Positions 5,301 to 47,309 of a stretch of DNA of 64,000 nt are shown here, one piece after another (the first letter of the stretch is position 1; each line of letters starts with the position of its first letter). The translations under genes and the position numbers were made by a program. The notes under the pieces were generated by a model. The model was not told where the DNA came from. It made no database searches and was given only the letters and a program-made list of their open reading frames with translations. The DNA is taken from contig WHVD01000093.1 in the NCBI GenBank assembly GCA_015178975.1, positions 186,001 through 250,000 on the forward strand, given 5' to 3'. This DNA is from Hysterangium stoloniferum (lineage: Eukaryota; Basidiomycota; Agaricomycetes; Hysterangiales; Hysterangiaceae).

Positions 5301-7829
5301 TTGGCTAAATTTTGGACCCAGGCAATAGAGCAGACTGCTGCAACAACAACTGCAGCCGTCAACGCCGCATCAGCATCCTTCGGCGCTGCTGGAACATCCA
5401 TTGATGCGCCGTTATTATCTTCAAGACCGCCCATGGCGTACGCACTTTCTTCGCTAGCTTTCTTAAGAAATCTGCACGATGAAAAGTCCAACGACAATTG
5501 GACTTTGGTGTCGGAAAGAGATCTGCCTGTTCATCGAAAAGTTTTCGCGGAGGTTTCAACAGTTATTCCCGTCCACAAAGGTGAAAAGGTTATTGAGGGT
5601 GTGTCTGCGGAAGAGGTAGCTCGTGTCGTCAACAGTTACGACTGCAGAGCTGCTTGGGACGATCGTTTTGACTCTGCAACTGTGCTTGAAGAATTCGGAG
5701 CAGGCTGTCATACTGCGTTTGTGACGTGCAAAGGCGGATTTCCCTTCCGAGACAGAGGGTTCTATCTGGCCAACGCTACCGCATGGCTGCTAAAGCCCTC
5801 AGAATCACCCGCGTCCGAAGACCAACGAGTTGCTGATAGTTCATTACATCCCAATTCGACGACCATTTTATGTGCTTCCGCATCTTTCAGCCCTTCATCG
5901 GTCGAGTCCTTTGACTCGACTAAATATAATCCTCATGGTCTACCTATTGGTCGCGTTATGGTCCAAGGCTGGATACTTGAGACGCTTGACCCTTACACTA
6001 CAGAAAATTATGCTATTCCTTCCACAAGATGCACCTATGTCGTATCGATCGATTTCGCAGGATCAGTGCCCGTGGCTTTTAACTCCATGCTGAATGCCTC
6101 ACTCCCTCGCGCCATTTTGACAATCGAGCAATACATGAAAGGCAATCCAGCGCTTCCCATGATGAGACTCCCTTCTTCGGTCGTCGCTCTAGTTGCAGAG
6201 GACGGCTCACGAGGCGTAGGCGAGCGATCATCTGCCACCGCAGCTTGGAAATATGTACGAACTGATGAGACACGAACACTAGTTTCGGAAAGATACCACA
6301 CAGCAAATAAGAAACTTAGGGCCATTTTCCTTATTTCACCCAATACCCACACAGAAGATTCCGCGTCGTCAAGGCCGAGCTTAACAGCTACACTCTTACA
6401 GGATAGTTCTCCCCTCCCCGATGGTCCATCCACACCTCAATCTTCCCCTACAGTATCACCCGCTTCGACGATCAGGTCCCGGCGTGTATCCACAACAACA
6501 TCCCCCCTGAAACAATCTCGATCTATATCCCGAGATCGTATATCTGCTATCGCTGCCTCTCTAGCTGCAGGAAGCAGAGATCCGAACCAACGTGATTTCC
6601 TTGCCGGCGAGATCATCGTGGATTCTAAGCTGTATCCAGACGGATACGAGGTTCATGTCGTCTCAAGTTTCAGAGACTCAACGCTCGGAAGCGATCCATT
6701 ATCTACGTCCATGATTTCTTCCAATACAACTGACCTCCCCCTATCCTGTACCTGTCATATAATGCCGTCGACACCGCTTCACTCTTCCGGAATCAGTGTT
6801 GATGCACCTCCTCGACATCTACTTCGTTTGACTCTACCAACGGCCCTCTACGGGGATATTATAGATCAGCCTCTATCACTAGAAACACCGAAAAAACCAT
6901 CGTGGTTGACAGCCTTTGAAACTCATGGCGCTATTCTTGACGTAACCCTCTTTCCCATAACTGATACTGGAAAGGGCAAAGGGGTTGTCATGTTTGATGG
7001 TGAGATTATTGACGTTATGGGTGAAAAGGATTCTATTCGCCTTTTGCGAAGAGGGCTTGAGGACACTCGACTAGCGAAAATGCCAATTTTGTCGAGGTAA
7101 GCATTTTCGAACTTTTTGCAATCTTTGTTATTCTGGTTAATGGTTGATAGTGGTCATTTACTCGCTGAATCCGAGGAAATCCCCAAGCTCCTCATTAACC
7201 CTATAGCAGTGGCGACAACTTTATGGGTTGACAGCGCAATCATTCAACAATCGGCGAAGGCAGATGTGACGTCACCTGATGGTGGGGGTGAAGCAAAGGA
7301 TAACTCTTCCAGAGATGATACTAGTGATGTTACTGTAAGGACATACGATACTTCTCAAGGGCACCACTTAACCTACCATCAGGATTCCCTGCGAGCATCT
7401 TGTGAAAACGCGGAGATCGTCGTACCCTCAACCGGATTTTTTAGATTTTTGAATGGGTATCCAAACACTTTATTCAGGCGAAGCAATCCGGAACTTTCGA
7501 TGACTAGTCGGCCATTTTCTACACAGGGGACATCTTCCCCAAGCTACATTGATTCCAACGCTCCCTCACTTGTTTTGACTGGAGATAGGGGTACTACTTG
7601 CCTCTTCCCCTTGTCAACGGTCCTGATCATTGCCTTGATTTCCTTCCTCTTCGGATCTCTCCTCAGATCCCTTCTCACACCTGCAGACTTCGTTTATATT
7701 CCGCAAGGCTTGACCCAGCCGGAGAAAGGTCGTGAATTGGAAGGATGGCGTGAAATAAAGCGCTTGGTAGAATTCAAACATGTTGCTGGCGGCTGGGATT
7801 TCTTGATTGGTATCGTTCGACGCCACTGA
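2328..7829 (+). CDS. Large multi-START-domain protein with C-terminal membrane anchor
   Basis: Seven exons join without phase conflict (2328-2344, 2395-2805, 2874-3013, 3072-3989, 4046-4283, 4337-7096, 7151-7829) to give 1,720 residues. I see three START-like (lipid-binding) modules. The first (residues about 60-290) and second (480-705) both contain a WPANPRDAV motif, each created across an intron at the same codon. The third (about 940-1200) reads DDRFDSATVLEEF...GGFPFRDRGFYLA and MVQGWILETLDPY. Serine/proline-rich low-complexity linkers separate them. A hydrophobic stretch near residues 1645-1669 (LSTVLIIALISFLFGSLL) looks like a single tail-proximal membrane segment. A role in lipid binding or transfer at a membrane contact is inferred from the fold only; the ligand is unknown. 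The first exon is very short (17 bp), so the start is likely but not certain. Confidence 0.82.
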
Positions 7830-13097: not shown

Positions 13098-13825
13098 TAT
13101 TAAGATCTAAGCTAAAAAGGGGAAGGGAGACTCTAAGTCAGGGGGTCCAATGATTGGAAATGAACTAATTGGGAGGCTGATTATAGAGATCATACTAGTC
13201 AGGAGGTCTGACTCTATAATCATAGTGGAGCTTGGCTTCAACTTATGTGTTGCACCCTCATACAAACTGTTAGAGTGCTCCGGTATTTCAAATAGAGCAA
13301 ATAGTACAATAGAGATGAAGTTCAACATTTAGCTCAATCAACTGGTGGGCCAAAAATACTAAGAGTTGTATAGTAAGAGTTCATGGCTTGCTGAGAATGT
13401 CTTTGGGGATGCTGAGAAGGGAGGAATGAGACTGGGAACTAGAAGGCAATCTAAAGAACTGTAGTATACAGTACATGAAGAGGATTTATACTATGATGAG
13501 ACAGATGACTGGATGGCCAATCAAGGAAGCAAAGGGTGAAATGGATCATGAGAAATCAATGACAATGTGGGGAGACTAAATGTAATATACTAAACAATAT
13601 TAAAGGGATCTGAGGTGGTGAGTGAGATGTGTAAATGGAGATGGTGATGGGGGAGGGAATGGAATGGAGATGGAATGGAAACTAAAAGGGTAAGACTATA
13701 ATGAAACAAGTGTTGGGGACACTGTGAGTGGTGATACAGTGAGTGGGGGTTCCAAACAGTGAAATGACAAAGGATATTAAGTACAAAACAAGTAGTGGGG
13801 GTCTGAAATGACAGGAATCCTAATA
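13098..13825 (-). repeat. LTR-D copy 1, 3' LTR of a minus-strand chromovirus remnant
   Basis: On the plus strand it runs from TATTAAGATC to ATCCTAATA, a mutated TG...CA pair compared with the copy at 40306-41263. On the minus strand it is preceded by a purine-rich tract (reverse complement of 13826-13838, AATGGGGGAATAC), the expected polypurine tract before a 3' LTR. This sets the element direction as minus. The 5' part of that element is missing. Confidence 0.7.
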
Positions 13826-13999: not shown

Positions 14000-15532
14000 A
14001 TGCCTCCACCTCTCTTCTTACCAAGCCCCAGTGATGGGGATGATGTCAAAAAACTTTGCCAACAACTACAGGAGGCCAAGGAGTGACAGTAGTTACAACT
14101 TGAATGGGAGGCTGCTGAGAAAAAGCAGAAGGAGGATGATCATCAGGAAGCATTGGTGGTGAAGAAGAAGACTGCCAATGATATGAAGGGCAAGGGTAAG
14201 GGTAAGGGTAAGGTGGTGGTGGGGCCATCAAAGGTACATGTCTTCTTCTTTCTGTTTTGTCCTTTACTGACTATAGAAAACAGGCAAAAAGGAAATGTGA
14301 GGATGATGAGGATGGTGAGGATGGTGAGGATGGTGAGGATGGTGAGGATGGTGAGGATGGTGAGGATGGTGAGGATGGTGAGGATGGTGAGGATGGTGAG
14401 GATGGTGAGGATGGTGAGGATGGTGAGGATGGTGAGGATGGTGAGGATGGTGAGGATGGTGAGGATGGTGAGGATGGTGAGGATGGTGAGGATGGTGAGG
14501 ATGGTGAGGATGGTGAGGATGGTGAGGATGGTGAGGATGGTGAGGATGGTGAGGATGGTGAGGATGGTGAGGATGGTGAGGATGGTGAGGATGGTGAGGA
14601 TGGTGAGGATGGTGAGGATGGTGAGGATGGTGAGGGATGGTGAGGATGGTGAGGATGGTGAGGATGGTGAGGATGGTGAGGATGGTGAGGATGGTGAGGA
14701 TGGTGAGGATGGTGAGGATGGTGAGGATGGTGAGGATGGTGAGGATGGTGAGGATGGTGAGGATGGTGAGGATGGTGAGGATGGTGAGGATGGTGAGGAT
14801 GGTGAGGATGGTGAGGATGGTGAGGATGGTGAGGATGGTGAGGATGGTGAGGATGGTGAGGGGGGATGGTGAGGATGGTGAGGATGGTGAGGATGGTGAG
14901 GATGGTGAGGATGGTGAGGATGGTGAGGATGGTGAGGATGGTGAGGATGGTGAGGATGGTGAGGATGGTGAGGATGGTGAGGATGGTGAGGATGGTGAGG
15001 ATGGTGAGGATGGTGAGGATGGTGAGGATAGGGGGGCTGGAAGTCCCAGACAGTAAGTTTTCTTTTCATTTTATTATTATTTTGATACTGATGTGATCAT
15101 AGGAGAGTTCCAGCTTTGGGGGGTCCATTGTGTGTGGGATGCACAGCATTGGGCATCCAGTGCACTTCCATGGGCTTCAACAGAGTCTGTGCACAGTACA
15201 ACAGGAGCAAGAAAGGTTGCACATTTGCAACACCATTGCTGGAATTGGTGGTGGAGCCTCTAAAAGAGATTGGGGAGACCCTGAAAGGGATCTTGGGTGC
15301 ACTGGAGACAGTGGCTTACTCCTGTCATCAGTTGGAGGAATGGTGGTCCATGGTGGGGAGTAGGCAAGAAATGGGAATACTGGTGGAGGAGGAGGTGCCA
15401 TTTGAAGGGAGTTCAAGCATTTTTGGTACTATAAATTGGCCTGGGACTAGTTTAGTGGTTGAGAGGAGGAGTAGAAATAGATCCAGAGGTGAGAAGGAAC
15501 AAGAGACACCTCAAATCAATACTCTAGATTAG
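14000..15532 (+). pseudogene. Retroelement antisense accessory gene, copy 1 (cysteine-cluster protein), with repeat expansion
   Basis: Spliced gene antisense to the LTR-D element. Exon 1 (14000-14232) encodes a charged, helix-forming segment (CQQLQEAKE; EAAEKKQKEDD) with two early stops (TGA 14084, TAG 14090) and ends in a GKGKGKGK run. Exon 2 begins after 14274 (KQAKRKCEDDEDG) and is filled by the 9-bp array. The last exon (about 15105-15532) encodes CVGCTALGIQC, eight residues, CAQY, NRSKKGC: the spacing of a Zn2Cys6 cluster with the fifth cysteine changed to tyrosine (TAC). The downstream part predicts an amphipathic helix. It resembles the genes at 22641-23443 and 43729-44425. Zn2Cys6 clusters normally bind DNA, but this function is only inferred and the present copy is broken. 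Confidence 0.7.
14308..15029 (+). repeat. (GAGGATGGT)n tandem array
   Basis: About 80 tandem copies of a 9-bp unit, nearly perfect, with two single-unit disruptions at about 14632-14640 (GAGGGATGG) and 14857-14868 (GAGGGGGGATGG), each shifting frame. In the frame of the host pseudogene it would read as repeated Glu-Asp-Gly. The near-identity of units shows recent expansion. The long frames in every other phase here are repeat artefacts. Confidence 0.97.
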
Positions 15533-15831: not shown

Positions 15832-16191
15832 TGTCACAACCATCACAGTCACAACATTGTCACAAAATATTCAAGGTAATTTTTGACAACTCTTTGACTT
15901 TGACTTGACCAATGAATTTGACTCAACTCCTATTTGACTTTCTTCGACAATATCAAATATCTTTGACATTCTCAGTTCAATGTCATGAATGATTTCATTA
16001 TGAGTCATAATGTAGTCATAGGTAAACAATGGAAAGCATAAAAGGGCAATGAGAAGAGTGAAGACCTCAGTCAGAAAATCTCTCCATTGAACATTAGTTG
16101 TCTGTATTACTAATCTACTCTCAATCTTATCTTTTGTAATTGTCAAAAAATTTTGACATTAACATCTGTGAGCCTTCACAACTGGTATTAG
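15832..16191 (+). repeat. LTR-E, 3'-truncated
   Basis: Starts TGTCACAACC like the other LTR-E copies (26134, 39557, 45644) but stops about 70 bp short, where the 5' LTR of Gypsy-1 begins. It was interrupted by, or recombined with, the Gypsy insertion. Confidence 0.75.
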
Positions 16192-17013
16192 TGTTACAAC
16201 CAGAATTCCTGCCAGACTCCGGGCACTAACTTATATGCACCTGTTCTCTATACGCACCAATTGTCAGTTTAGAATTCCCACCAGACTCCATACATCAGAC
16301 TTGTCCATGTTCAACTTCGTTACATCATGTATCAGTCACCAGAATACCCACCGGACTCCATCCCTGTCTATGTCCGACCTCGTCCCACATGTCAGTCACC
16401 AGACCCTGCTCAGAAAACCCATCATCCCTCTAACAGAGCCCCGTTCCTGTTTTAGTCAAATGACCTATCACAATTTGGACTCCGCTCCCGCTCCATTTCC
16501 CGTTATGGTTTATGATTTGTCACGATTCAGACTCTGCTCCATTCCATCCCATTCCTAACACCAAATTTGGTGTTTACTATTCTCATTTTATGTTTTGCTA
16601 GTTTCGTTTCATTATTACTGGATTTGGTATGTCATTCATTCCATGGTCTATATAGTCTGGCAGATGTTGTACATACAATCCAGTCAGAAAATTGGCTTAG
16701 ATTCCCCCCAGTAATCTAATACATTTTCCGCTCTAAACCCCTCCTTGAATTACACTGCTCTTGCTAGTCAGAGCCCACAGGCTCCAATGCATCTATCTCA
16801 CTTATTCATCTCAACTCCCTGACCTCTCGACCCACGACCTCCGACCTATGACCCCTTGACCCATGAACCCTGCCCAGACTCCCCAGGTTTCCCATCCACC
16901 TGTCTGAAATTGGACAACACGATCTCACGAGGGTGCAGCCTATAAGCTGAAGCCAAGTCCTACCAGATATCCTGTGGGTTTCTCCAGAAACCGGCCATGT
17001 ACGTACCCTAACA
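16192..17013 (+). repeat. 5' LTR of Gypsy-1 (LTR-B copy 2)
   Basis: An 822-bp LTR, TGTTACAACC...CCCTAACA. It contains four short internal repeats around GGAATTCCCRCYGGACTCC, the palindromic module with an embedded TATAA (16928-16960) about 55 bp before its end, and a 107-codon open frame (16235-16558) that also occurs in other LTR-B copies. The TATAA suggests initiation close to the LTR end; this is inferred. Confidence 0.88.
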
Positions 17014-17047
17014 GTATTTTCTGACTAAGACTCGCAGATTGTTCAAT

Positions 17048-18310
17048 ATGCCACCAAGAAAAAAAACGCATGCACAGGCATCATTACCTGGACCGTCGAC
17101 TCTTCATTCCCCATTAACTTTGTATACCAGCCAGACACTCGCAAACCAGTTGGAAGCCATGGAAGAGGCCTGTATCGAAGAAGTCCCAGAAAACCAGGAT
17201 GAATCCGAGCACAAGGACGAGTCCATGGCCCCCGACAAGGGCAAAGGTGTCAAAAATCCTCCATCTAGTGATCGACTGCTGCTTTCAGATCCTGAGTATT
17301 TAGCAATCACTCTAGAAAGGTTGATGAATCATATGCTTGGAGAAGGCAAAAAGAAAGATCCGGAACCTCTGCAGTCAAAAGTCAATGCTCCGGAACCCTT
17401 CTCAGGTTCCAACCCAAACAAACTCTCTACTTTCCTCATGCAATGTCACTTCAATTTCCGCAATCAATCTGCTACATTCTCCACGGACTTCTGAAAAGTC
17501 AACTATGCACTTTCGTACTTGTCAGGCTCCATGTTGAAATGGTTCGAACTGGCTTTTAGCGGACTTTCTGAGGAAGAGCCGCTTTGGCCCGAAGATTGGG
17601 ATGCTTTTGTTGAGGAGCTTGAAACCAACTTTGGCCCATATGACCTGACAGGAGAAGCCAAGAACAGTCTCACAAATCTTTGTATGAAGGACACGCAGCG
17701 CATCACGCACTATATTGTCCAATTTAATAATTTTGCAGCTTGTTGTCAGTGGGGCGATCCCGCTCTCTGCCACCAATTCTACACCGGTCTGCCATCCTGC
17801 CTTAAAGATGAAGTCTCGAAAGGAGAAGATGGCAAGCCAAAAACCCTGTCCCATATGCACCTCAAGGCTCAAAACGGGGATGCACGTTATTGGGAACATT
17901 GCGCGGAAGTTGCCCACGAGACCTCCGTGGACAAAGTAAACAGGTCCATGGCCAATAAAACTAACAACAACAACTCATCAACCAGCAACCAGAACTCCAA
18001 GCAATCCAACAAGAAGAATGATAAAAAGTCTTCAAACAACAACAACAACAACAACAACAAAGGTCAACAGTCTGGCAAGCAGACTGGAAAACCTGACCTC
18101 ACAGGCAAACTTGGACCCAATGGCAAATTGACCCCACAGGAAAGACAACATCATATGGACAATAACCTCTGTCTCTTGTGCAGAAAACCTGGTCATCGCA
18201 TCCCAGAATGTCTGCTGGCAAAAGCAAACTCTGAAAAGGGTCAAACAGCCAAGACCTCCACAGAAACCCCGTCGAAGGACAAACTGGCTTCTGACTTGAA
18301 AAAAGAGTGA
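17048..18310 (+). pseudogene. gag: Gypsy-1 gag polyprotein
   Basis: Begins MPPRKKTHAQASLPG shortly after the 5' LTR. The capsid-like core (SMLKWFELAFSGL; WPEDWDAFVEELETNFG; HYIVQFNNFA) is typical of retrotransposon_gag. It is followed by an Asn-rich linker with an (AAC)n run (about 18033-18060) and a CCHC zinc knuckle, CLLCRKPGHRIPEC. One in-frame TGA at 17492-17494 interrupts the core; CGA to TGA is the likely cause. A near-identical start is repeated at 42840-42903. The gag frame ends at 18310, just after an A6 run. Confidence 0.85.
18299..18310 (+). promoter_or_regulatory. Possible -1 frameshift site between gag and pol
   Basis: The last gag codons are AAA AAA GAG TGA (18299-18310). The pol frame is -1 relative to gag and is open from here. 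A slip on the A6 run would join the two, as in many Gypsy elements. No downstream pseudoknot was assessed. Confidence 0.45.
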
Positions 18311-18799
18311 GCAACCCCACGGACTCCGTGTGGGTCAGGGGTTGCATTGCCTCTCCGTGCATTCAAGAGTTTACCCACCTCAACGCATCCACTCTTTCGC
18401 ATTCTGATTCACTTTTCATTAAACTTATGTCTAATATGATTCTGAAATTCATTTTTTCAGCTCTTATAGATTCCGGCTCGACTCATTGTTTTTTAGATAC
18501 AAAATTCACACAAAAACATTTGTTATCAACTTATCCAATAAATCCCATTGGCCTCCACCTCTTTGATGGCACAAGTAATTTGGTTGTTACCCAAGCTTGT
18601 GATTTATCCATCTGTTTCCTGTGTGGAACATCTCAGTTGGTCACTTTCTATGTGACCCAGTTAGACTCAAGTTGCTTGGTGGTCCTAGGACACAACTGGC
18701 TTACCTGCTACAATCTGTTGATTGACTGGATAGCTAACAGTATAACATTCCAGACTCCCATGGCAGCTGAGGAAACTGTGCCCGACATGGCCTCCACAG

Positions 18800-19205
18800 C
18801 ACCCATGGCCTTCCTAAATGTTCATCCAGGAAATTGTGGATCGCAGAAGTTCCGTGGACGAAAGTGGGTAAATATGTCCTAGGGGTGGCTGGGCGCCTTC
18901 TTCGAGATCAATTTTTAAGTCATATTCTCTGTGGGGTGGAAGCCAGTCAGCTTTCTGCTTGCTAAAAATATCCGTGAAGTCATGATATTTCTCTGGGATG
19001 CCTTCTAGGTCAGCAGCTTGCTCAGATGCAGATACCAGGGTTGAAAAATGACCAGTTGCTTCATCAATTTTTAGGTTGATAGTGAACACCTGGGACCCAT
19101 CCATTTTTGTAGCCCTAATAAAAGCTGCAGCATTAATCAGAGAAATAGATGGAGGTGTCGTGGGTTCCAGGGAAGCCATGGATGCTGTAGGGATCACAGG
19201 AGTCC
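18800..19205 (-). other. Inverted segment inside Gypsy-1 pol
   Basis: About 400 bp of pol between protease and RT reads on the opposite strand. The minus strand encodes INLKIDEATGHFSTLV, EKYHDFTDIFSK and DWLPPHREYDLKIDLEEGAQ, which belong just before the RT domain. The segment is bounded by short inverted repeats centred on CCATGG (about 18798-18816 and 19176-19193). Plus-strand coding resumes at [14 protein letters not shown] (about 19211). Confidence 0.85.
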
Positions 19206-21714
19206 TCGAGACTGCAATTTGGAGCACCTATTCTGTTTGTCAGAAAAAAGGATGGATCCCTTAGACTATGTGTTGATTTCAGAGGACTCAATGCTGTCAC
19301 AAAAAAGGATAAGTATCCACTTCCACTTATATCTGATCTGCTCGATGCTCCATGGAATGCCCAGATTTACACCAAAATAGATCTCAAACATGCCTATCAT
19401 TTGGTCTGGATCTCCACGGGCGATGAATGGAAAACCACTTTTAGAACCTGCTATGGGGCCTTTGAGTGGTTGGTGATGCCCTTTGGACTCACCAATGCTC
19501 CATCTGTTTTTCAATGTTTTATCAATGACATTTTCTCCGACATGCTCAATGTATGTGTCATTGTTTACTTGGACAACATTCTTATCTACTCCCAGGATCC
19601 CACGGAACATGACAAACAAGTTTGTGAAGTTCTCTGGAGACTCAGACAATATGGTTTATTCGTGAATGGTAAAAAATGTACTTTTGACACAGACTCCGTG
19701 GAATACCTGGGTTTCATAATGGGACCCGATGGACTCCGCATGGATGAAACTAAAGTGCAAGTCATTAAAGATTGGCCTGAACCCTGAAAAGTTAAAGATA
19801 TACAATCCTTCCTCAGCTTTGCCAATTTTTACCGATGGTTTATCCGCGGATATTCTGACATCACGGTTCCCCTTACCTGTCTTACATATAAGGATACTCC
19901 ATGGAATTTTAATGATAAGTGTCAAAAAGCTTTCAACCTTTTAAAAAATTCTTTTTCTTCAGCTCCTATCTTGTTGCATTGGAAACCAGACCTCCTGCTC
20001 ATTGTTGAAATGGATGCCTCGGACTATGCACTTAGAGCCATTCTGTCTATCCAGGACTCCAACAGAGAAGTCCACCCCATGGCTTTTCTGTCCCAGACTT
20101 TTACCAGAGCAGAGCTCAATTACGACGTTCATAAGGAACTCCTGGCAATTTTTTCAGCTTTCAAAATGTGGTGACACTATTTGGAAGGCTCAGGAACTCC
20201 GATTGACATTGTAACAGATCACAAAAACCTGGAATACTTTTCTACCACAAAACTTTTGACCTGTTGGTAGGCCGACTGGTCTGAATACCTATCCACTTTC
20301 AATATGACTATCCATTTTTGATCTGGCCATCTCGGTGGCAAACCTGACGCTTTAACTAGATGATGGGACGTCTATCCTAAAGAGGGGAGCAATGACTATG
20401 CCACAGTAAATCCACACAACCTGAAACCCATTTTCACAAATCAGCAACTTACCGCATTGGTCCGTGCAACTTTCCTCATCAATCCCATTGTCCGTGGAAT
20501 TATCATTATGGATATTGAGAAGCTACATCAAGATATTCTATCAGCAATTCCACTAGACCCGATTACTAAAGCACACCTTGACAATCCCATGGACCCTGAT
20601 CAACTCCGGTGGTCTCTTGATCAGCATGGTTTCATTAGACTTGACGATTGTATCTATGTACTGGACTCCAATGGCCTCCGCCTCAGGATCCTTCAGTATA
20701 AACATGATCACCCACTCTCTGGACATTTTGGGTACAAAAAAACTCTATCATCAATAAGAAGAGAATATACTTGGTCCAGACTCCATGGATTCGTTAAGCA
20801 CTATTGTAAATCTTGCACTACTTGTCCCCACTTGAAATCTCAGCGACACAAGCTATATGGCCTTTTGAAACAACTCCCGGTACCGGAACACCCATGAAAT
20901 TCTATTTCTATGGATTTCATTGAACACCTACCAGACTCCGAAGGTTTTTCCACCATTCTAGTCATTGTTGACAGATTCTCAAAACAAGGTATATCCATCC
21001 CTACACATGATACAATTACATCCATGCAGTTAGTGGAACTTTTTATTATCCACGTATTTTCCAAGCATGGAGTTCCATCCCACATAACTTCTGATCGAGG
21101 ATCAGAGTCCATATCTCACTTCTTTAGATCCCTCAGGAAATCCTTGGACATGAAATTACATTTCACATCCAGACATCACCCAGAAGGTGATGGACAAACT
21201 GAACACGTCAATCAGACATTGGAACAATATCTCCACGTATATTACAGTTATCAACAGGACAATTGGAAATCCTTGTTACCACTTGCAGAATTTGCTTACA
21301 ACAATGCACCCTTGGCCACTACTGGCGTTTCCACGTTCTTTGCAAATAAAGGATATAATCTAAATATTACAGTACATCCAGAATGAAATCCCACCTCTGC
21401 TTGTGCTCAAGAGTTCACCACAGACCTCCATGAGCTCCACGAGGAACTCTGGACTGCACTAAGTCCACCCAAGAGCAATATCAACATTCAGTGGACAAAC
21501 ACCAGACTCTGCCACCAAACTTCAAGATTGGCGATCATGTTTTTGTCAAAGCTCAATTCTTCTGGACTACCTGTCCATCAAAAAAGCTTGCTGAAAAATA
21601 TTTAGGTCCATTTGAAATTATCGCACATGTAGGTTCAGTCTCTTGGACCCTACGGCTTCCGGATAGCATGTGTGTGGTACTGCTAACACTATCCTGGATT
21701 GCATGCAATCTCCA

Positions 21715-22195
21715 TGTCACGTATCGAATTTTACTCAATAAAGTCGAATAAACAATCGAAGAATATTCAACAATATCGAATAAAAATGCCTCATTTGATG
21801 AAGTATTAATTTGTCCTGTTGATAAAGTGTGAGGCAAAGATAGGATACAGAGGCTCACGAATAAATAAGTCAAAGAAAGGCTCAGAAAAAGTTCAACAAT
21901 TATATAATACAGTAATAATATAATATAATACAGGTTTTCTGACTGACTTCCTTCGTTCCTATCATTGCCCTTATATACTATATATCATTTACTTATGATG
22001 ATAATATGATATCAAAGTGAAATCATCAATGACATCAAACTAAGACAAGTTGAAGATATTTGATATTGTCGAAGATATTGTCGAAGAATAGTCAAGTCGG
22101 AAGTCAAGTTGGAAATTGAGTTGGAAAGTCGAAGAAATGTTGAAGAAATGTTAAATTAAATATTATCAAAAATTTGAGCTTGTACGTTCATGACA
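21715..22195 (-). repeat. Solo LTR-A copy 3, inside Gypsy-1 pol
   Basis: A 481-bp inverted LTR-A (TGTCACGTATCG...TTCATGACA) between the integrase and chromodomain. Flanking 5-mers are CTCCA and CTCTG, which differ at two positions by transitions, so the duplication is probable but decayed. Coding sequence continues on both sides. Confidence 0.88.
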
Positions 22196-22440
22196 CTCTG
22201 CCCCCTCTGGTCATTATTGACAGAGAACCCGAGTTTGAAATCTCACAAATTTTAGATTCAAAAATTGACAAGCATCGATGCACTTGTAAACTGCTTTACT
22301 TGGTCAAGTGGGTGGGTTACGAGGGCACCAATGAAGAGACTTCATGGATTTTGGCCACGGAACTCAGTAATGCCATGGAAATTGTTACTGACTTTCACAC
22401 AGCTTACCCACTCAAACCCAGACCACTATCTTCTCTTTGA

Positions 22441-22640: not shown

Positions 22641-23443
22641 TCAATCTACATTTATGGGGCTATGCTTCTGCCCAACCTCAGCCATCTCTTGAGGAAGCTC
22701 CACTACCTCCGCAGGCACCCCGTCTTGGGCCTCAATGCCCTCAGCGATCTGCCCCAAAACATCATCCAAACTGGACATCCCATCTGTCCCGCTAATGTCC
22801 TGTGCCCTGGACCCCGTGGGCTGCTCGTGGACGAGCGAGCACCTTGCCTTGAGGTGCATGCACTGGTAGCAACCTGGTCCCTGCCTGGACTTCCAATTAC
22901 ACTCAATGTTCTGGTCATTGCAACCAGAACACCATGGGTTGTTCTGTGTCAGTAGGCAGACTGGTGCCACCTTCCTTGCTTTCTGTTGATTATGGTTAGT
23001 TCCCTGGAATTCCCACAGACTCGAGACTTACCTTTTGGGGGCTCTCCGGCTCCCCCTCAGACTCCGATTCTACCTCTGTCACTTTGCACTGAAAATACCA
23101 AGTCAGTTAACTCGACAAGTTGAAACATTGGGACTTACCTTTCCTGTGGCAACTGCAGCCCTGTCTGCAGCCACCCAGGCCTTTTCCATGGCCACCCGTA
23201 CAGCCTCCTCCTCATCTCTCTTCCTCTGCCTCTCAGCCTCTTCCTCTGTGGCCAATGCCACCTGGTATTCCCTGTCTAGGGCCTCCTCGACCTCCTTCAC
23301 CTCCTTTTCTGCCTCTTCACATTGTTGGCACTGTTCCTCTCATGCGCCAGTATTTGGGCCACACTGAGTGGCACCCGATATGGAATGCCTGTGGAGGTCC
23401 CAGCAGTTGGCATGGGTCTTCTTGGTGTTGGCTTTGGACCCAT
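22641..23443 (-). pseudogene. Retroelement antisense accessory gene, copy 2 (Zn2Cys6-spaced cluster, all six cysteines kept)
   Basis: Three exons on the minus strand: 23443-23140, 23088-23032 and 22982-22641, with GT-AG introns of 51 and 49 bp. Exon 1 starts MGPKPTPRRPMPTAGTS and encodes a long charged coiled coil (EEALDREYQVALATEEEAER...AMEKAWVAADRAAVATGK). Exon 2 is acidic (VTEVESESEGEPESP). Exon 3 carries CSGCNDQNIEC, nine residues, CYQCMHLKARC: CX2CX6CX9CX2CX6C, the spacing of fungal binuclear zinc clusters. A frameshift in exon 1 near 23330-23345 separates the start from the coiled coil, so this copy is probably broken, although the cluster is intact. It lies inside Gypsy-1, antisense to pol, ending 200 bp from the pol stop and starting about 200 bp from the polypurine tract. 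A DNA-binding role is inferred from spacing only. Confidence 0.78.
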
Positions 23444-23635
23444 TATGGTGAGATGGGGGTAATAAAGAAGAAGAAATTTTCATTTTTTCAAAATTTTATA
23501 TAGGCTCATCACATCTGAACCTTACCTTCCAGATCACATGACTCTTTGACACATACATGTAACCGACATGACTTTTGACACATGCACATAGCCAACAAGA
23601 ACCTTATCAAGGTCTAGAGCCTCTTTGGGACTTTG

Positions 23636-23653
23636 GCATAAAGGGAGGGTACT
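23636..23653 (+). promoter_or_regulatory. Polypurine tract of Gypsy-1
   Basis: The tract aaagggaggg followed by tac lies directly before the 3' LTR start at 23654, where plus-strand DNA synthesis would be primed. Its position proves that the antisense gene lies within the element. Equivalent tracts flank the LTRs at 13825 and 43582 on the minus strand. Confidence 0.75.
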
Positions 23654-25250
23654 GTTATGACTGGAATTCCTGCTGGACTCCCGGCACTAACTTATACACA
23701 CCAATTGTCAGTTTACTGGAATTCCCGCTGGACTCTGTACTGTACATCAGACTTGTCCACGTTCGACTTTGTTATGTCGTGTATCAGTCACTGGAATACT
23801 CACTGGACTCCATCCCCGTCTATGTCCGACTCTGTCCCATACATCAGTCACTGGACCCCACTTGGAAAACCCGTCATCTCTCTAACTGAGCCCCATTCCC
23901 ATTTTAGTCAAATGACCTGTCACGATTTGGACTCCACTCCCACTCCATTTCCCATTATGGTTTATGATTTGTCATGATTCGGACTCCGCTCCATTCTGTC
24001 CCGTTCCTAACACCAAATTTGGTGTTTACTATTCTCATTTCATGTTTTGCTAGTTTCATTTCATCATTACTGGATTTGGTATGTTATTCATTCCACGATC
24101 TATATAATCTGGCAGATGTTGTACATACAATCCAGTCAGAAAATCGGCTTAGATTCCCCCCAGTAATCTAATACATTTTCCGCTCTAAACTCATCCTTGA
24201 ATCACACTGCTCACGCTAGTCGGAGCCCACAGGCTCTGACACATCTATGTATCTCACTTATTTATCTCAACCCATGACCTCCAACCTACGACCCCTTGAC
24301 CCATGAACCCCACCCAGACTCCCTGGGATTCCCGTCTGCCTGTCTGAAATTGGACAACACGATCTCGCGAGGGCACAGTGTTAGGGTACGTACACGGTGG
24401 GTCTCCAGAGAAACCCATGGAATATCCAGTAGGACTTGGCTTCAGCTTATAGGCTGCACCCTCGCTAGATCGTGTTGTCCAATTTCAGACAGGCAGACAG
24501 GAATCCCAGGGAGTCTGGGTGGGGGTCGTGGGTGTGGTCGAGGGGTCGTAGGTAAGAGAGATATGTAGATGCACTGATGGGCTCCAACTAGTGTGAGCAG
24601 TGTAATTCAAGTAGGAGTTTAGAGTGGAAAATGTATTAGATCACTGGGGGGAATCTAAGCCAATTTTCTGACTGGATTGTATATACAACATCTGCCAGTT
24701 TAAATAGACCGTGGAGTGAATGACATACCAAATCCAGTAATGATGAAATGAAATGAGCAAAACATAAAATGGGAATAGTAAACACCAAATTTGGTGTTAG
24801 GAACGGGAAGGAACGGAGTGGAGTCTGAATAGTGACAAATCATAAACCATAATGGGAAACGGAGTGGGAGCGGAGTCCGAATTGTGACAGGTCATTTGAC
24901 TAAAACAGGAATGGGGCTCTGTTAGAGGGATGATGGATTTTACGAGCAGGGTTCAGTGACTGATGTGTGGGATGAGGTCAGATATAAACAGGGACGGAGT
25001 CCAGTGGGTTTTCCGGTGACTGAAACACAATGTAATGAAGTTGACCGTAGACAAGTCTGACATACAGAGTCCAGCGGGAATTCCGGTAAACTGATAATGG
25101 GTGCGTACATATAGGGCACGGGTGCGTATAAGTTAGTGCCTGGAGTCTGGCAGGATTTCCAGTCGTAACACACAGCCTATAAGCTGAAGCCAAGTCCTAC
25201 CAGATATCCTGCGGGTTTCTCCGGAAACCCACCATGTATGTACCCTAACA
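23654..25250 (+). repeat. 3' LTR of Gypsy-1 (LTR-B copy 3), split by LTR-B copy 4
   Basis: Begins TGTTATGACTGG and ends TACCCTAACA. It is interrupted at 24379-25170 by an inverted LTR of the same family with CACAG duplications (24374-24378, 25171-25175). Without the insert and one duplication it is about 800 bp, similar to the 5' LTR. Confidence 0.88.
24379..25170 (-). repeat. Solo LTR-B copy 4 (minus), nested in the Gypsy-1 3' LTR
   Basis: A 792-bp inverted LTR-B, TGTTAGGGTACG...AGTCGTAACA, with a perfect CACAG target duplication. An LTR inserted into its own family creates a long inverted repeat at this site. Confidence 0.9.
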
Positions 25251-27621: not shown

Positions 27622-30600
27622 ATGGGCACAACGATAGCAAGGGATCACCCTAAGGCACAGACAAAAGTTACCAAGTTCTTCAAACAGTCTAAAAGCGGAA
27701 TGGACGCCTCGGACCACTCCGATCGCGACGCGTCTGACGTGGAAAACTTGGACACTCCCCAAGCTACGTCGAAGGTCAACAATAAGCTTCCCCCGGATCA
27801 ATCAGACCTTCCTCCTATAAATGATATTCCAGCTATTTTCGCCGATCTCCTCAATCGCATCCCACAAATCAAGGGCGTCGTCGAACACGTCCAAGGTCGC
27901 AAATTACGCGTCGCAACAATGTGTTCCGGCACGGAGTCTCCCCTACTCGCGCTCAATCTTATCTGCAGGTCTATCCAGAAGAAATATGGTCTCGCACTTG
28001 AGGTTGAACACGTATTTTCGTGTGAGATTGAGCCTTTCAAGCAGGCATATATCGAACGTAACTTCAAACCTCCGATTCTATTCCGTGATGTATGCGAGTT
28101 AGGCGGTGACTATGCGTATGTTATCTGCAACCTTCATTAGACTTCATTCACTTAAGCGTAACAGTACTACGGCATATGGCTCTCATGTCGAAGTGCCTGG
28201 TAATGTCGACATTCTCATCGCAGGAACCTCGTGTGTCGATTATTCAAACCTGAATAATGAGAAACAAGGAATTGAGGCGGACGGAGAGTCCGGTCGTACA
28301 TTCCGTGGCATGATGTCGTGGGTTACTAAGCATCGTCCTCCACTCGTAATTCTGGAAAATGTCTGTGGTGCTCCCTGGGACAAGGTTCAAAGCTATTTCG
28401 AAGCAAAAGCATATAGCGCAAGCCATATGCGTGTTGATACTAAAAATTTTTACATCCCTCATACCCGCACGCGAGTTTATCTCATGGCCGTAGACAAAAA
28501 GAAATCTGACATGCCAAATGATTGGAAGGACCTGTTGAAGCAGTTGTATCGACCGGCATCTTCCACATTGGATGCATTCTTGCTCCCTAGAGACGACCCT
28601 CGTATCCATCAAGCCAGGGAGAAGCTGGTTCAAGAAAGTTTTGGAGGGGTGGACCGGCGCACTGGACGTACAGACTGGGGCAGGTGCGAATCTCGTCATC
28701 AAAGAGCTCGTTTGGAGGAAGAACTTGGCAGTAAACGACCACTGACCGGTTGGGACGAAGGTTTGCCATTTCAGCTCAGTTCCTATATTCTCCTATATTC
28801 ATTGTTATGTGGATTTAGGTGGTTACTGTAATTTGCCAGACTTCGCCTGGAATGACTGGGGCGTCGGACAGGTGCAACGAGTTTGGGATTTGATGGACAT
28901 ATCCCTCCTTCGAGCAGCCAAGGAAGGGGTAGACCCGTCTTATAAGACGTCAGTCCTATTCATTTTATGTTATTACAGGCTCTGATGAACCATCCAGCCA
29001 AGTGTGGAATTTGTCACAAAATGTCGACAGGAATATTGGATCCCGTCCTGGTATTTGCCCATGCTTAACGCCTACGATGATCCCCTATATTACTAACCGT
29101 GGAGGACCCATGATCGGATTGGAGGCCCTATCGCTTCAAGGACTCCCTGTGGACGAGCTCCTTCTTACTCGGGAAACCGAAGATCAGCTGGCTGACTTAG
29201 CCGGTAATGCCATGTCCTCTACTGTTGTAGGTGCTAGTATTATGGCAGCCCTCGTCATAGGTAAAAAGTTATTAAAAGGCGGTTCAGCTGATAACAACAA
29301 TATGGACATTGATGCACCCCATGCGAAAATTGAGGATGATATCATGGGAGACGATCAGCTTCAACTTCAGCCTCTCGACCTAACCACGATCACTACCCAT
29401 TCTCTTTCAAAGCTTCTACAGCGCGCAGACCGTTCAGCGCGTCTGTGTGACTGCGAGGGTCGCACCGGAATGACTTCCCGCGTTGTACGGCGTTGCCAAG
29501 AGTGCTCTGCGACCGCATGTGTTAAATGTGGAGGCCGTCCTGAGCACAATTATCTTCCCATCGACTTTTCAACATTGTCCCGTGTGCCTCCGATCGAATT
29601 TGCTGCAGAGCTCAAAGCAGCTCTCCCCATGTGCTTGAGTATACAAGGCGTAGACGTTGTGGGCTTGAACAAAAATAGAGTTTCGTCCAATGTCAGCATC
29701 TCTGACAAAGAGTGGAGAGCATGGGAGTCAGCCGTTCTTGAAGCCTCCCAAAGTGAGTTAAGATTCTCCGACCTCAAACGTCAAGAAGTTTGGGTAGCAG
29801 TGTATGCTTCCTCCAGAGCGTCGTTGGAGCTGTTGTTACATCCCAAACGACCGGAATGGCGACTTTTTGGTAAGCCAGAGTCATCTGTTCCGGCCAATAG
29901 CCCCACCCGCAAACTTCTTGCTTTCCCCGTTGCTCGGTTCGTTTGTCGTGACGGTCTTCTCGACGGTATTTGGGAGTTCGCTCTCCCACAAGTTTCCTCC
30001 TATAATATCCAACTGAAGGGTGTTGGCGAGCTTGTTCCGGCCTGGGAATGTCGTCTTGGGCTACAAAATGATAAGCTAAAAGAGCGCAAGGTGTATTCTC
30101 AAATAAAAATTACAGTTCCAACGAATCACCTTGCATCCTTGGACCGCGATATATCTGGCGTGTATTCATACCTGCCTCAATGCGGGACTGCGAACAGCTC
30201 GCTACATAAGAAGGTGGACGACGACACGACGCTTCCTGATCTCTTCCTCTTTCTTGACCCTACTCGCTGTGGGGAAGTGACCGAAGATGCCTTCGTGTTT
30301 TCAACCAGTAAGCGAAGATATGAATTTGGAGAGACACGTCCTATCATCTGTAGCCTGGATCCCAAGTGGAGACAATCCGACTTGGAGGAGATTCAAAGCG
30401 TTAAATGCCATGTTCCATGTGTCTGGGTCTCGGCATCCGGTACTAGGTTGGAGGTGAGCTGAAATATTGTCGACATTTTGAGCGTATCGTTTATCTCGTA
30501 TTTAGGCAACGCAACGAGCGGCGAAGTTTGCTGTCCCCGCAAAGGAACTCAATATTGTGGTCTCGAATACATCATGTGCTAGTGCCAATGCAATTTTAAC

Positions 30601-33600
30601 TTGCGAGGTTGGACTGCAAGGTCAGGCCGGACCGGAATGGCCCCGTAATCAGTGGCGAGACGTTGATGCAGTACACGCTCGCACAATTTTCCAGTCTCTA
30701 GCATGGATAATTGAACGTGTAAAGAACATTGGAGGATATGTCGACTCATGGGTAGATGTTCCATTCAAAGGAAGAAGCAGTAACTGTGAACGCTGCGCGC
30801 CCACAGCGCCTCGATTGATCTGGAAAAAGTTCGATCGCAAGGTGAAAGCAGTTGAGGATCAGTCTCAAGCTGGCGCGTACGAGCAGGCTTTGAAGCACCG
30901 CCCCAGTGCTTTCATCACACAATTGAAATTTGACGAGACCACTGGGGTTGGTAATGTTCGAATTGGTGTAAACATACCATCCCTAGTTCACCGTGCGGTG
31001 TCTCGACTTCCAACTGAGCAGCGCACTGGATCTCCAAAGGTTTCATGGAGGCTGACCACAGATTATACACCACCCGCGAAACTCAATCTTCCCAAATTTC
31101 AGCTGTCGGGTAACAAACAGGATCCCCAGCACACACAGCCACCACACTTCAAAATTCCACTTCGCCCTGAGCAACTCCGTTCTCTAAGCTGGATGGTTAA
31201 CCAGGAGTCCTCACTGGCTCCTCCTTTCATCGAGGAAGAAATCGCCGAAGCTATGCTTGAGCCTCTTGGTTGGAGAGCGGAAGGGCGCGCCCAAAGGCCA
31301 GTTCATGTTCGCGGTGGTGTACTTGCCGACGAAGTGGGATATGGAAAAACTGCCATTACACTCGGTCTTATAGACAGTGCGCCACACAAAAAGGCCGATG
31401 TTCCGCCCAAGGAAGTCGCCTTTGGTCGTATTTCCGTAAGGGGGACTTTGGTTATTGTTCCGCCCCATCTAACGCGACAGTGGGAGTCCGAAGTCAAGAA
31501 GTTTTGCGGAAACGCCTTTGACGTTGTCGTAATCTCAACAGCGGCTAATATGAACTCATTGTCCATCGAGGTCGTTTGTGCAGCCGATATTGTAATTGTC
31601 GCATCAAATCTGTTCAAATCTTCTGTTTACTTGGCGAACCTAGAAGCATTTGCGGCTGCAGGTGTTCTCCCTAATCAAGATGGAAGATACTTCAATGCAA
31701 AGTTGAAGGAGCTCCTCTCATCGCTCAAGCAACAGGTTGAACTACTGAAAAAAGACGGTACTGAGAGTGTCATTAAGAAAATTGAAGAGGGCGTAAACAA
31801 AGGTAACGCCGAGTCCTGTCTCCTTTTTGTGATTTTTAACTTCCTTGCAGTCGACGAGCCGTCTGAGAACTTAGGACCATCCAAGCGACTGAAAGGCAAG
31901 AAGTACCGAGAAGTCAACGCGTCTAACACTTCTCCTGAACCAGAACCCAAAACCTCCCTGTCAAAAGTATCGAATCGTTTTACTCAGTCAGGCAACTCTC
32001 CTACGCCTAACTTAGTGGTAGAAGTTGTCATTCCACCCAAAAGGAAAAGCGCTGTCACCAAGGTTTCCTCACTTCCGCCGCCTGAAGAATCCGACATAGA
32101 CAGCGACGAGGCCCCTAAATGGCGTCCTCGGCGTTCCATAACGCATATTAAAATCCACATCTCTGACGACGAGAATGTCGAGTCTGAAAGCGAATACGGT
32201 GATGATCAGAACGCAGATACCAGTGTCCAAGATAGCCGGATGGAAGAGTCAGACAATGGCGATGTGTCTATGGAAGACGACGTTTCTGAAGAGGAAGAAT
32301 CTCTGATAAAAATCAAATTGAAGGCAAAGGCCAAATCCAAGCCTCAACCCAAGTCCAAGAGCGAGGCCGTTAGCAAATCAAAGAGGAGTAAAGGTATGAA
32401 CGATATGGACGTAGACGATGCCCCACCCAAGGGTAGTATTGTGAAGAAGCGCAAGAGTGACGTGATAGGTTCCGACGATGACGGGAGCGAGAGTCCAAAG
32501 AAACCCACAAAGAAGGCGAAAGTTAGTCGGGCTAGTCTTGATCCTTGGAAGCTTAAAACTTCGACTGTCAAAAAGAATTGGAAAGAGATGAAAGCTCCGC
32601 CTCTGGAAATATTCCATTTCCATAGACTCGTGATCGATGAGTATACTTACTTGGATGGCAAAACACATTCGCTCATCACGAGCCTCCAAGCCACATGCCG
32701 TTGGGTTCTTTCAGGGACACCGCCTGTGCATGATTTCCCTTCATTGAAAACCATCGCCGTTTTCTTAGATGTTCATCTTGGAATTGATGACGACAATGAA
32801 GGACATTCTGCGCAGGTTAAAAGAAGGCGGCGAGAACAGACAGGTGCGTTATATTTCTTTCCCAGGGATGATGAGACAGAATGATACTTTTTTGTCTCCC
32901 AGAGGTCGAAAAGTTCCACTCGTTCCGTGAGGTACGCAGTCTCGAGTGGCATGCCCACAGACATCAAGTTGGGCAAGGTTTCCTTGACCAATTCGTTCGT
33001 CAGGTGTGTATCTATCACGAACGATAAACGACATTTGATTGACCTTACCGCACAGAATAAACCGGAAATTGACGAGATCCCAGCGACTGAACACAAGGAA
33101 CCTGTGTTTCTACCTGCTGCAGAGCGTGCGATTTATCTGGAGCTTGATCACCACCTTCGAGCTCTCGACATGACTATCAAGCGCGGAAGAAAGAACGAAA
33201 GCGATCGGGAAAAGCGCTTACAGAAATCTCTAGGAGAAAGCAAGTAAGTGTAACCTAGGCCAGTCATTTAAATTTATTTATGTGATGTAACCCAGTTCTG
33301 CGGAAGAAGCCCTCCTCAAACGCTGCTCTCATTTCGACCTGGAAACGAACGACAAAGAAAATGCTATGAAAGCATGTGAGATCATTGTAAAAGACCGTAC
33401 GGCACAACTCGAAGAATGTCGCGCGGACTTGTACAACAATGTCTTGGAAGCTTTGGAGATGCAAAAACGAATTGGAAAGACAGAAAATGAGAGCCTTTTC
33501 CAAGAATGGCTTCGTGTGACACGGACGGAAGGTGTTGGCGATAGGCGAGCATCTGATATTGTCCTGGGAGTCTTTAAAGACGCTGGTCTGGACTTCTCCG

Positions 33601-37298: not shown

Positions 37299-38087
37299 TG
37301 TCACAAACGTACAAGCTCAAATTTCAATAATATTCAATATTACATTTCTTCAACATTCCTTTGACTTTCCAACTCAACTTCCAACTTGACTATTCTTCAA
37401 CAATATCTTCGACAATATTGAATATCTTCGACAATATTGAATATCTTCGACAATATTGAATATCTTCGACAATATTGAATATCTTCGACAATATTGAATA
37501 TCTTCGACAATATTGAATATCTTCGACAATATTGAATATCTTCGACAATATTGAATATCTTCGACAATATTGAATATCTTCGACAATATTGAATATCTTC
37601 GACAATATTGAATATCTTCGACAATATTGAATATCTTCGACAATATTGAATATCTTCGACAATATTGAATATCTTCGACAATATTGAATATCTTCGACAA
37701 TATTGAATATCTTCGACAATATTGAATATCTTCGACAATATTGAATATCTTCAACTTGTCTCAGGTTGACATCATTGATGATTTCACTTTGATATCATAT
37801 TTCATCATAGATAAATGATATATAGTATATAAGGGCAATGATAGGAACGAAGGAAGAGTCAGAAAACCTGTATTATATTATATTATTTACTGTATTATAT
37901 AATCGTCGAACTTTTTCTGAGCCTTTCTTCAACTTAATTATTTGTGAGCCTCTGTGTCCTATCTTTGCCTCACGCTTTATCAACAGGACGAATTAATACT
38001 TCGTCAAATGAGGCATCTTTATTCGATATTGTTGAATATTCTTCGATTGTTTATTCAACTTTATTGAGTAAAATTTGATTTGTGACA
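37299..38087 (+). repeat. Solo LTR-A copy 4 with internal tandem expansion
   Basis: TGTCACAAAC...TTTGTGACA with CAACC duplications at 37294-37298 and 38088-38092. It is about 310 bp longer than other LTR-A copies because of a 19-bp tandem array. Confidence 0.93.
37399..37750. repeat. 19-bp tandem array in LTR-A copy 4
   Basis: About 18 near-identical units of AATATCTTCGACAATATTG. The unit contains the palindrome CAATATTG. Other LTR-A copies have only one or two partial units at this place. The open frames over it in three phases are repeat artefacts. Confidence 0.97.
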
Positions 38088-39990: not shown

Positions 39991-41520
39991 ATCTGGCACT
40001 ACCAGTAAGTAACTTAATATCTCCTACCACTCTTGCACTTTTATTTATTTATAGCTCATATGCAAGGCTATCACAAGAATAACACAGTCACAAGGGATAT
40101 TAGAGAAGATTATTTGGCTGAAGGTATTTTTTTATGATTTACTATATTCTTGATATTTCAGCTAATGCTGTAGTTCTTAAATACAGGCACAAGTGACTAG
40201 GGTCAAGAATATGATGAAGATGAAAATGAGGGTCAGAATATGGTGTTGGCTGGACAAGTTAAGAATATATTTGAGATCCAATTTGAGATTTCATATGGAG
40301 CTGCTTGTTAAGATCTAAGCTAAAAAGGGGAAGAGAGGCTCTAAGTCAGGGGGTCTAATGATTGGAAATGAACTAATTGGGGGGTTGTTCCTTTGTGAAG
40401 TAACATGTCATGTTCTCAAGCGATAGCACTACTCCTTTGCTTAGACCTCTCTCAATAGAGAGTATTTACAGATTGAAAACTTCGTCATTCAAATTCAGAC
40501 ACATCTACCCTGTTTATGGCCATCTAAATTTTTGAATTATACTTACTTGACTTCAACTGGGACTTGGCACAGATTCAAATCTGGGCTGCCTGATGATAGA
40601 GATCATACTAGTCAGGAGGTCTGACTCTATAATTGTAGTGGAGCTTGGCTTCAACTTACATATGTGTTACACCCTCATACAAACTGTTAGGATGCTCCAG
40701 TATTTCAAATAGAGCAAACAGTATGATAGAGATGAAGTTCAGCACTTAGCTCAATTGACCAGAGGGCCAAAAATACTAAGAGTCATATATGTAGTAAGAG
40801 TTTGTGGCTTGCTGAGAACATCTTTGGGTGTAGTGAGAAGGGGAGAACAAGACTGGGAACTAGTAGAGGGTAATCTAAGTCAATTTTCAAACTAAAGAAC
40901 TGTAGTATACATGAAGAGGTTTATACTATGACCAGATGGATGACCAGATGGCCAATCAAGGAAGCAAAGAGTGAAATGGATCATGAGAAATTGATGACAA
41001 GGTGTGGAGACTAAATGTAATATACTAAACAATATTAAAGGTCTGAGGTGGCAAGTGAGATGTGTAAACAGAGATGGTGACAAGGGAGGGAATGAAATAG
41101 AGATGGAATGGAAACTAAAAGGGTAAGACTATACATAATAAAACAAGCGTTGGGGACACTGTGAGTAGTGATACAGTGAGTGGGGGTTCCAAACAGTGAA
41201 ATGACAAAGGATATTAAGTACAAAACAAGTAGTGGGGGTCCAAAATGATGGGGGATCCTAACACTGCTACATGTGTGAAGGGTATGCTTTTACCACAGTT
41301 TCATTGCAGTAAAATACTCCTTTTATTTTATTTATATTTTACACATTTTATTTATATTTTTCTATCCTTTATATTCTTCGAATATTGTACCATTTCATTA
41401 GCTCAAAGCTCTGTGTATACTTGTGGGTGCACTCGGCACCAGACAAACAGACATACTTTTACCCAAGCACCACCACTCGTAAGACACAAACTAGGTCTAC
41501 AGTGAGCAGTGATCAGGATA
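39991..41520 (+). pseudogene. Unrecognised gene remnant, interrupted by LTR-D copy 2
   Basis: Removing LTR-D copy 2 and one CTGCT duplication joins a reading FEISYGAA to TCVKGMLLPQFHC. Intron-like boundaries (gtaagt near 40001, tttatag near 40060, cattgcag near 41309, tttcattag near 41400) and a further segment KALCILVGALGTRQTDILLPK (41406-41468) suggest a spliced gene. Stops in the first part indicate decay. I do not recognise the family. Confidence 0.35.
40306..41263 (-). repeat. Solo LTR-D copy 2
   Basis: TGTTAAGATC...ATCCTAACA with CTGCT duplications (40301-40305, 41264-41268). It has about 215 bp (around 40386-40595) not present in LTR-D copy 1. It carries a variant of the shared LTR module at 40641-40676. 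Confidence 0.88.
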
Positions 41521-45600: not shown

Positions 45601-45643
45601 ACATGAAATACTGGGTGTACCACACACATGCTTTCTGGGAGCC

Positions 45644-47171: not shown

Positions 47172-47309
47172 TCTTGAGCATGAACAGAGGCAAGACTGTG
47201 CTCCTGGTGTACCATGATATTGGGATTATAACCCTTATTGGCAAAGAAGGGTAATATGCCAGTAGTGGTGGAGGGTGCATTGTTGTATGCAAATTCTGCC
47301 AGTAGCAGG

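Follow-up and report, generated by a model that had tools for sequence, protein, structure and literature searches.

Antisense genes are known from several LTR retrotransposons. In plants, antisense ORFs between pol and the 3′ LTR (aORF-3R) are described for Grande (gene23), RIRE2, Retand and PvRetro13, with a promoter of its own and a nuclear product in the case of Grande gene23; Boty-like elements of Botrytis cinerea have an antisense gene, brtn, in the same place, an antisense promoter in the 3′ LTR of HTLV is mentioned, and what antisense extra genes do in LTR retrotransposons is said not to be known (available part of PMC7264820). Here we describe a gene of this kind in a 64,000-nucleotide stretch of DNA from Hysterangium stoloniferum (hereafter the window; GCA_015178975.1, contig WHVD01000093.1, positions 186,001 to 250,000 of the forward strand) and in the 111-Mb, 554-contig assembly that we searched for relatives.

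The gene is an ORF antisense to gag-pol that lies between pol and the 3′ LTR, occurs in most copies of its element, and is conserved at the protein level. In HTLV-1, HBZ is a coiled-coil nuclear protein encoded by an antisense, spliced gene near the 3′ LTR. Compared by description, our gene is likewise antisense, spliced, and close to the 3′ LTR, but it differs from HBZ in that its promoter-like block lies outside the LTR and in that its product has a cysteine cluster, not a bZIP. With plant aORF-3R it shares place, orientation, presence in most copies, and conservation similar to that of other element proteins, and with brtn, likened by description, it shares a fungal element and an antisense position between pol and the 3′ LTR (available part of PMC7264820). 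It differs from the plant genes, again by description, in belonging to a fungal chromovirus, in having two spliceosome-type introns and a six-cysteine cluster, in the presence of several old versions on one backbone, and in having a related gene in an element that lacks pol. The portion of the review text available contains neither "intron" nor "zinc"; the available main text of PMC3248453, on fungal LTR elements, contains none of "antisense", "additional ORF", "zinc", "intron" or "Boty", and that of PMC6317226, a plant survey, none of "antisense", "additional ORF" or "aORF".

An opposite-strand gene between pol and the 3′ LTR

Gypsy-1 (16190-~24400) is a decayed Ty3/Gypsy element on the forward strand. 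Its 5′ LTR (16190-17010) and 3′ LTR (23653-~24400) are 83% identical by blastn (16190-17010 against 23653-24373), and between them lie gag (17039-18307), a decayed pol (18121-22437) with reverse transcriptase, RNase H, integrase and a chromodomain (within 22201-22437), and a polypurine tract that was read directly (23640-23652). Pfam matches above cut-off were obtained for Retrotrans_gag, RVT_1, RT_RNaseH, Integrase_H2C2 and rve, and for Chromo both here and in L028, a reference copy outside the window. With gag, reverse transcriptase, RNase H, integrase, a chromodomain at the C-terminal end of the integrase and an LTR pair all present, the family is a Ty3/Gypsy chromovirus.

On the reverse strand of Gypsy-1, between pol and the polypurine tract, lies an accessory gene that spans exactly 22641-23443. 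Exon 1 (23139-23443) encodes a charged, helix-like segment, exon 2 (23032-23088) acidic residues between basic ones, and exon 3 (22641-22982) a six-cysteine cluster followed by the C-terminal region. The two phase-0 introns have GT..AG borders: intron 1 (23089-23138, 50 nt) reads GTAAGT...CTGAC...CAG and intron 2 (22983-23031, 49 nt) GTAAGT...CTAAC...CAG. A sequence-only reading of the window had proposed this two-intron gene, and its coordinates and cysteine spacing (CX2CX6CX9CX2CX6C) proved exact. The copy is broken, with a frameshift in exon 1 (305 nt) and an exon 3 about 53 codons shorter than that of L028.

The same reading had placed a second copy, with introns at the same positions, in Gypsy-2, which we could confirm: the gene occupies 43729-44425 on the forward strand, antisense to the pol pieces of that element (45308-49540, reverse strand), and both introns are at the Gypsy-1 positions. 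Its exon 1 contains a premature stop, and several of its cysteines are lost; in the 62 aa at the beginning of exon 3 it matches L028 with 48% identity (BLASTP E 2e-16). Together with a third, more divergent gene treated below, all three copies in the window are decayed. Outside the window, L028 and L056 retain a gene that is open through all three exons. L028 (C1:512000-521900) has LTRs that are 99.3% identical over 820 bp, stop-to-stop frames of 437 aa for gag and 1304 aa for pol, and antisense exons at 2671-2997, 3047-3103 and 3153-3653 that encode a product of 294 residues. A, E, K and R abound in the exon 1 product, which looks helical; exon 2 places basic residues around an acidic run, which we take to be NLS-like across the exon junctions; and exon 3 encodes the CX2CX6CX9CX2CX6C cluster and then a tail.

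Upstream of the ATG, an alignment of 16 copies revealed a promoter-like antisense block (23444-23639, reverse strand, in Gypsy-1) in which a ATGTGTCAAA..GTCATG motif occurs twice, with a TATA-like stretch and a CT-rich run before the ATG. The TATA-like TATATAAA, at 23495-23502 in Gypsy-1, is found in most of the 16 copies, with L012, L014 and L022b differing. Of seven 3′ regions compared in 12 copies, this block has the lowest divergence (mean 0.075 versus 0.185 for exon 3). The antisense promoter had been expected in or near the 3′ LTR; the predicted one, a conserved block of its own, lies between the polypurine tract and the ATG and not within the LTR. Across 20 aligned copies, most rows with sequence preserve the GT/AG borders, the ATG and a branch-like CTRAC motif; the intron 1 motif is lost in L012, L017 and Gypsy-2, L016 is unaligned at intron 1, and several decayed rows have stops or lost cysteines. 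Introns of such short GT...CTRAC...CAG form point to a fungal host.

The fungal Zn(2)-Cys(6) binuclear cluster (PF00172) has the spacing CX2CX6CX5-12CX2CX6-8C. The exon 3 cysteines of L028 (C18, C21, C28, C38, C41 and C48) fit it, and among 12 sequences chosen for a stop-free exon 3 five of the six cysteines are invariant and the sixth nearly so. The earlier assignment to Zn2Cys6 proteins is thus upheld in spacing and not by the Pfam Zn_clus profile, whose gathering cut-off of 21 bits was not reached where a score was shown (12.8, 8.2 and 10 bits); eight of 12 members matched the profile at E 1 or better, the best at E 0.014. An AlphaFold model of exon 3 was uninformative (pLDDT 48), a PDB sequence search with the protein gave no convincing match, and no relative was found in a scan of viral contigs. 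Weak matches of the protein to AvrD (best E 0.0025), CAP and talin were taken as chance.

Two inverted pieces were observed in or next to Gypsy-1. A pol piece at 18847-19215, corresponding to residues 235-357 of the L028 protein, is inverted between correctly oriented flanks, and an inverted LTR of the Gypsy-1 family (24382-25171) adjoins the 3′ LTR, so that the two form a large palindrome-like arrangement.

Prevalence and purifying selection

The sequence-only reading called for a survey of Gypsy copies for the antisense ORF. We examined the best 150 of 2520 candidate chromodomain matches, chosen regardless of the accessory gene, and at least 123 of these 150 have the gene antisense within 1.5 kb downstream of the chromodomain, with none on the same strand (coordinate tables). 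The tally grew from 113 of 150, based on two gene listings (one of them represented by 62 of its 150 rows), to 120 and then to 123 as two further listings were added; the median spacing between chromodomain and gene is 214 bp (113 matches). Among the 25 matches with a pol frame of at least 1250 aa, 23 have the gene, at least 19 of them with a stop-free exon 3. The other 27 of the 150 comprise five that were fetched, one gene-less copy on contig C212, two at contig ends, and 19 without assignment. All five fetched copies hold the gene or a remnant, and four hold exon 3 sequence (one partial, one split); in L049 only the promoter block, sequence of exon 1 and the final codons remain.

Approached from the promoter side, exon 3 was reached in 38 of the best 40 of 735 candidate places, mostly at about 483 bp, and both exceptions are on C212, where the promoter block is only 104 bp from the chromodomain and the accessory gene is therefore absent. 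The gene searches yielded at least 328 distinct places in the assembly. The 20 loci L009-L028 all have the gene antisense past the chromodomain, with an insertion between the two in two of them; given that these loci were picked by the gene itself, this count is circular as evidence of prevalence. These results support the view that the accessory gene is a standing component of the chromovirus lineage, and not the outcome of three captures.

Within C212:642692-645648 about 2.7 kb separates two promoter copies that stand in inverted order, and one of them is immediately next to a chromodomain. Many contigs start (among them C1, C16, C25, C103, C122 and C199) or end (among them C2 and C34) in or near near-identical young copies of the element, so the assembly was probably broken by the recent amplification of this chromovirus.

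A comparison of dN/dS between the accessory gene and pol, also suggested earlier, gave values well below 1 for exon 3 and for pol. Relative to L028, exon 3 has a dN/dS of 0.10-0.20 in 11 diverged copies (L009-L019), against 0.20-0.34 for pol in the same copies. Exon 1 is noisier, at 0.18-0.70 in diverged copies and 0.99 in some young pairs with few changes. In the pair L028/L056, which is open in all exons, the ratio is 0.17 for exon 1 and for exon 3 alike, and other pairs compared alongside it reach 0.28 in exon 3. Neighbouring elements affected the L018 exon 1 value (low), the L016 gag value (low) and part of the L010 pol, and these were remapped on restricted stretches. Differences in exon 3, summed over all pairs of 15 copies, fall on antisense codon positions 1, 2 and 3 as 2120, 1824 and 5176, and in the two copies checked the sense strand of the same stretch has stops in three frames and open runs of at most 214 codons. 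Protein-level purifying selection on the accessory gene, with a dN/dS of 0.10-0.28 in exon 3, is clear.

Old gene versions and a possible role

When L028 is compared with old copies, most pol windows have a DNA identity of 86-95% and the two windows at the promoter block one of 81-90%, against 65-84% across the gene. Low values (70-76%) also occur in single windows of U3 and gag. We disregarded stretches that hold inserts or lack a match (L014 and L016). The accessory gene is thus a diverged block between conserved flanks. Synonymous divergence from L028 is 0.5-1.3 in exon 3 and 0.24-0.31 in pol, except in L010 (0.43), a locus that holds a second element. In a tree of 16 copies, five inner branches of the gene are starred, compared with one in the pol tree, which is otherwise a star; L012 is left out of both trees. 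An AU test of gene clade B gave rejection by the pol data (p-AU 0.017) and none by the gene data (p-AU 0.83), the former value being only indicative because B was picked after both distance tables had been seen. Distances of exon 1 and exon 3 are themselves discordant in some copies, such as L012 and L013.

Given that pol is star-like, that the gene tree is deeply branched, and that pol rejects a gene grouping, the gene seems to have been exchanged among elements. The copy C535 is the clearest case of different versions riding near-identical elements: over 601 bp of pol it shares 99% identity with L028, but in exon 3 it is 87% identical to L028-type copies and 92-100% identical within a set of eight places, itself included, two further places being a 96% fragment and an 88% copy. 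Exchange by recombination, which would have homogenised pol and retained the gene versions, is the simplest reading of these sequences. It would seem decidedly improbable that there was no exchange and that the gene, sharing one history with pol, merely mutates or loses CpG faster, even though the gene is rich in G+C and in CpG (about 9 per 100 nt, versus 5.9 in pol), old copies decay by transitions, and exon 3 distances still correlate with those of the end of pol when the young cluster is excluded (r 0.61, p 0.015), so that the two histories are not fully independent. Besides the trees and C535, exon 3 exceeds pol in transversions at fourfold sites in every one of the 11 diverged copies, the excess being small in L010 and L012, and in six of the 11 a Fisher test distinguishes them (0.11-0.23 versus 0.03-0.05, p 0.0001-0.014), although the comparisons are not independent because one reference is common to all. 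CpG decay as the sole cause of the divergence is disfavoured by these transversions and by C535. The gene had been supposed to be vertically inherited; it holds that it belongs to the lineage and does not stem from three chance captures, while the star-like pol tree and the p-AU of 0.017 speak against simple vertical descent. Compared with the available parts of PMC7264820, PMC3248453 and PMC6317226, what is new here is a gene that forms an island of old divergence on a near-uniform backbone.

We lean towards the view that the accessory protein is a nuclear DNA-binding regulator of its own element, encoded by a gene that is read from its own antisense promoter. In this scheme, which we build from sequence features, a third gene besides gag and pol would be read from the TATA-like promoter between the polypurine tract and the gene, its antisense placement giving it a promoter separate from that of gag-pol, and its transcript would lose two short introns. 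The introns would outlast retrotransposition because the genomic RNA holds only their complement, which cannot be spliced. Its product, in which a long N-terminus, charged and helix-like, is combined with an NLS-like cluster of basic residues and a cysteine cluster, may enter the nucleus, bind DNA, and regulate the transcription or copy number of the element, and the diversity of versions may reflect element-specific control that distinguishes self from non-self. The retention of old versions on one backbone suggests such specificity between element and regulator, whether as immunity or as copy-number control. Because at least two L028-like copies (L049 and C212) are without the gene body, the gene is possibly dispensable in cis, and gene-less copies near L028 could be served in trans.

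In lambdoid phage immunity regions, which are defined by co-diverged binding sites, the regulator gene is a diverged segment flanked by conserved sequence, and relatives exchange it. The accessory gene is similar in being a diverged block between conserved flanks and in the occurrence of its versions on nearly one pol, with a putative regulator role; it differs in that co-diverged sites, sought in U3, were not clearly found. Exon 3 and LTR U3 distances correlate across all 12 copies (r 0.72), no more strongly than most other regions do, and without the young cluster exon 3 shows no coupling to U3 (r -0.04, p 0.50) and exon 1 a weak one (r 0.36, p 0.046, uncorrected for six tests). We therefore set aside an operator model in which U3 diverges in step with the gene.

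A narrower form of regulation, in which the gene would be an immunity gene encoding a DNA-binding repressor whose version sets which siblings are silenced and lets rare versions escape, is on present sequence comparisons unlikely. If it were true, old versions would survive on a backbone homogenised by recombination, as in heteroimmune phages, and pol-less relatives would retain a related gene for the same reason. Also unlikely is the idea of a nuclear protein that assists the integration complex as a cofactor, acting in import, tethering or target choice and not in expression. The NLS-like motif and the cysteine cluster would suit such a cofactor, as would the presence of a related gene beside gag in a pol-less element, which has to borrow pol, and the antisense protein of maize Grande is reported to be nuclear (available part of PMC7264820); the chromodomain of pol may already serve targeting, however, and several old versions on one pol backbone would be left without a reason.

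That the antisense RNA is the working part, forming dsRNA with genomic RNA and causing silencing while the protein matters little, strikes us as very improbable. Any RNA made from the accessory gene would be the complement of the 3′ part of the genomic RNA, and antisense RNA roles are discussed for plant elements (available part of PMC7264820), but the low dN/dS of exon 3, the third-position bias, and the mostly conserved cysteines and splice sites point to a protein. We give still less credence to a mere passenger, a host gene of zinc-cluster type that was captured a single time and then carried along: the introns and the zinc-cluster spacing do resemble those of a host gene, yet the gene has its own conserved promoter-like block, is under purifying selection comparable to that on pol, and is present both in the great majority of the best family matches and in the diverged Gypsy-2. 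The family offers an unusually clear case of an antisense gene, with its many places in the assembly, a dedicated promoter-like block, introns that fix the strand and strong selection, together with copies that naturally lack the gene and old versions, several of them on one backbone. Given these features, function is testable with matched and mismatched pairs.

Pol-less relatives and other features of the window

The third gene (14000-15532, forward strand) is a divergent accessory-like gene with a relative in a pol-less element, and its window copy has a tyrosine in place of the fifth cysteine and an in-frame stop in the first exon (read directly). It had been attributed to an LTR-D element, a label that is wrong because the adjoining repeat (13177-13822, reverse strand) instead matches both LTRs of a relative on C102; a further copy of that LTR lies at 40590-41263. 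The C102 element is about 4.5 kb long, with LTRs that are 86% identical and the order LTR, gag, antisense gene, LTR, and it has no room for pol because only about 0.8 kb separates gag from the gene. In C513 gag and the gene are ordered as in C102, and no LTR pair was found there. Among 20 third-gene loci examined with 1.5-kb flanks, gag pieces occur in eight and pol pieces, decayed or nested, in two; L043, considered as a pol-bearing relative, was too decayed and nested to use.

The third-gene exon at 15092-15532 matches 58 stretches, its own included, some of which are pieces of one copy. Six cysteines in the arrangement CX2CX6CX8CX2CX6C are present in nine of 20 rows (two of them overlapping), the others having lost at least one or being incomplete, and dN/dS is 0.12-0.48 in the listed pairs, except for close pairs at 0.67 and 0.84. 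Architecture makes homology to the main gene likely, given the antisense place, the three-exon layout, and six cysteines spaced almost as in the main gene; by sequence it is marginal, as the third protein matches the other two with a BLASTP E of 0.005 (a single comparison) and an hhalign probability of 5.8%.

The middle exon of the third gene is swollen by dozens of copies of a 9-bp tandem repeat, GGTGAGGAT, at 14280-15040, which encodes Gly-Glu-Asp in frame but with length slips. Elsewhere in the window, long open frames at 30506-32884 and 4326-7100 have SNF2-related and START-domain matches and are candidate host genes between the elements. A separate 19-bp tandem repeat array, with 20 registered copies, lies at 37307-37838.
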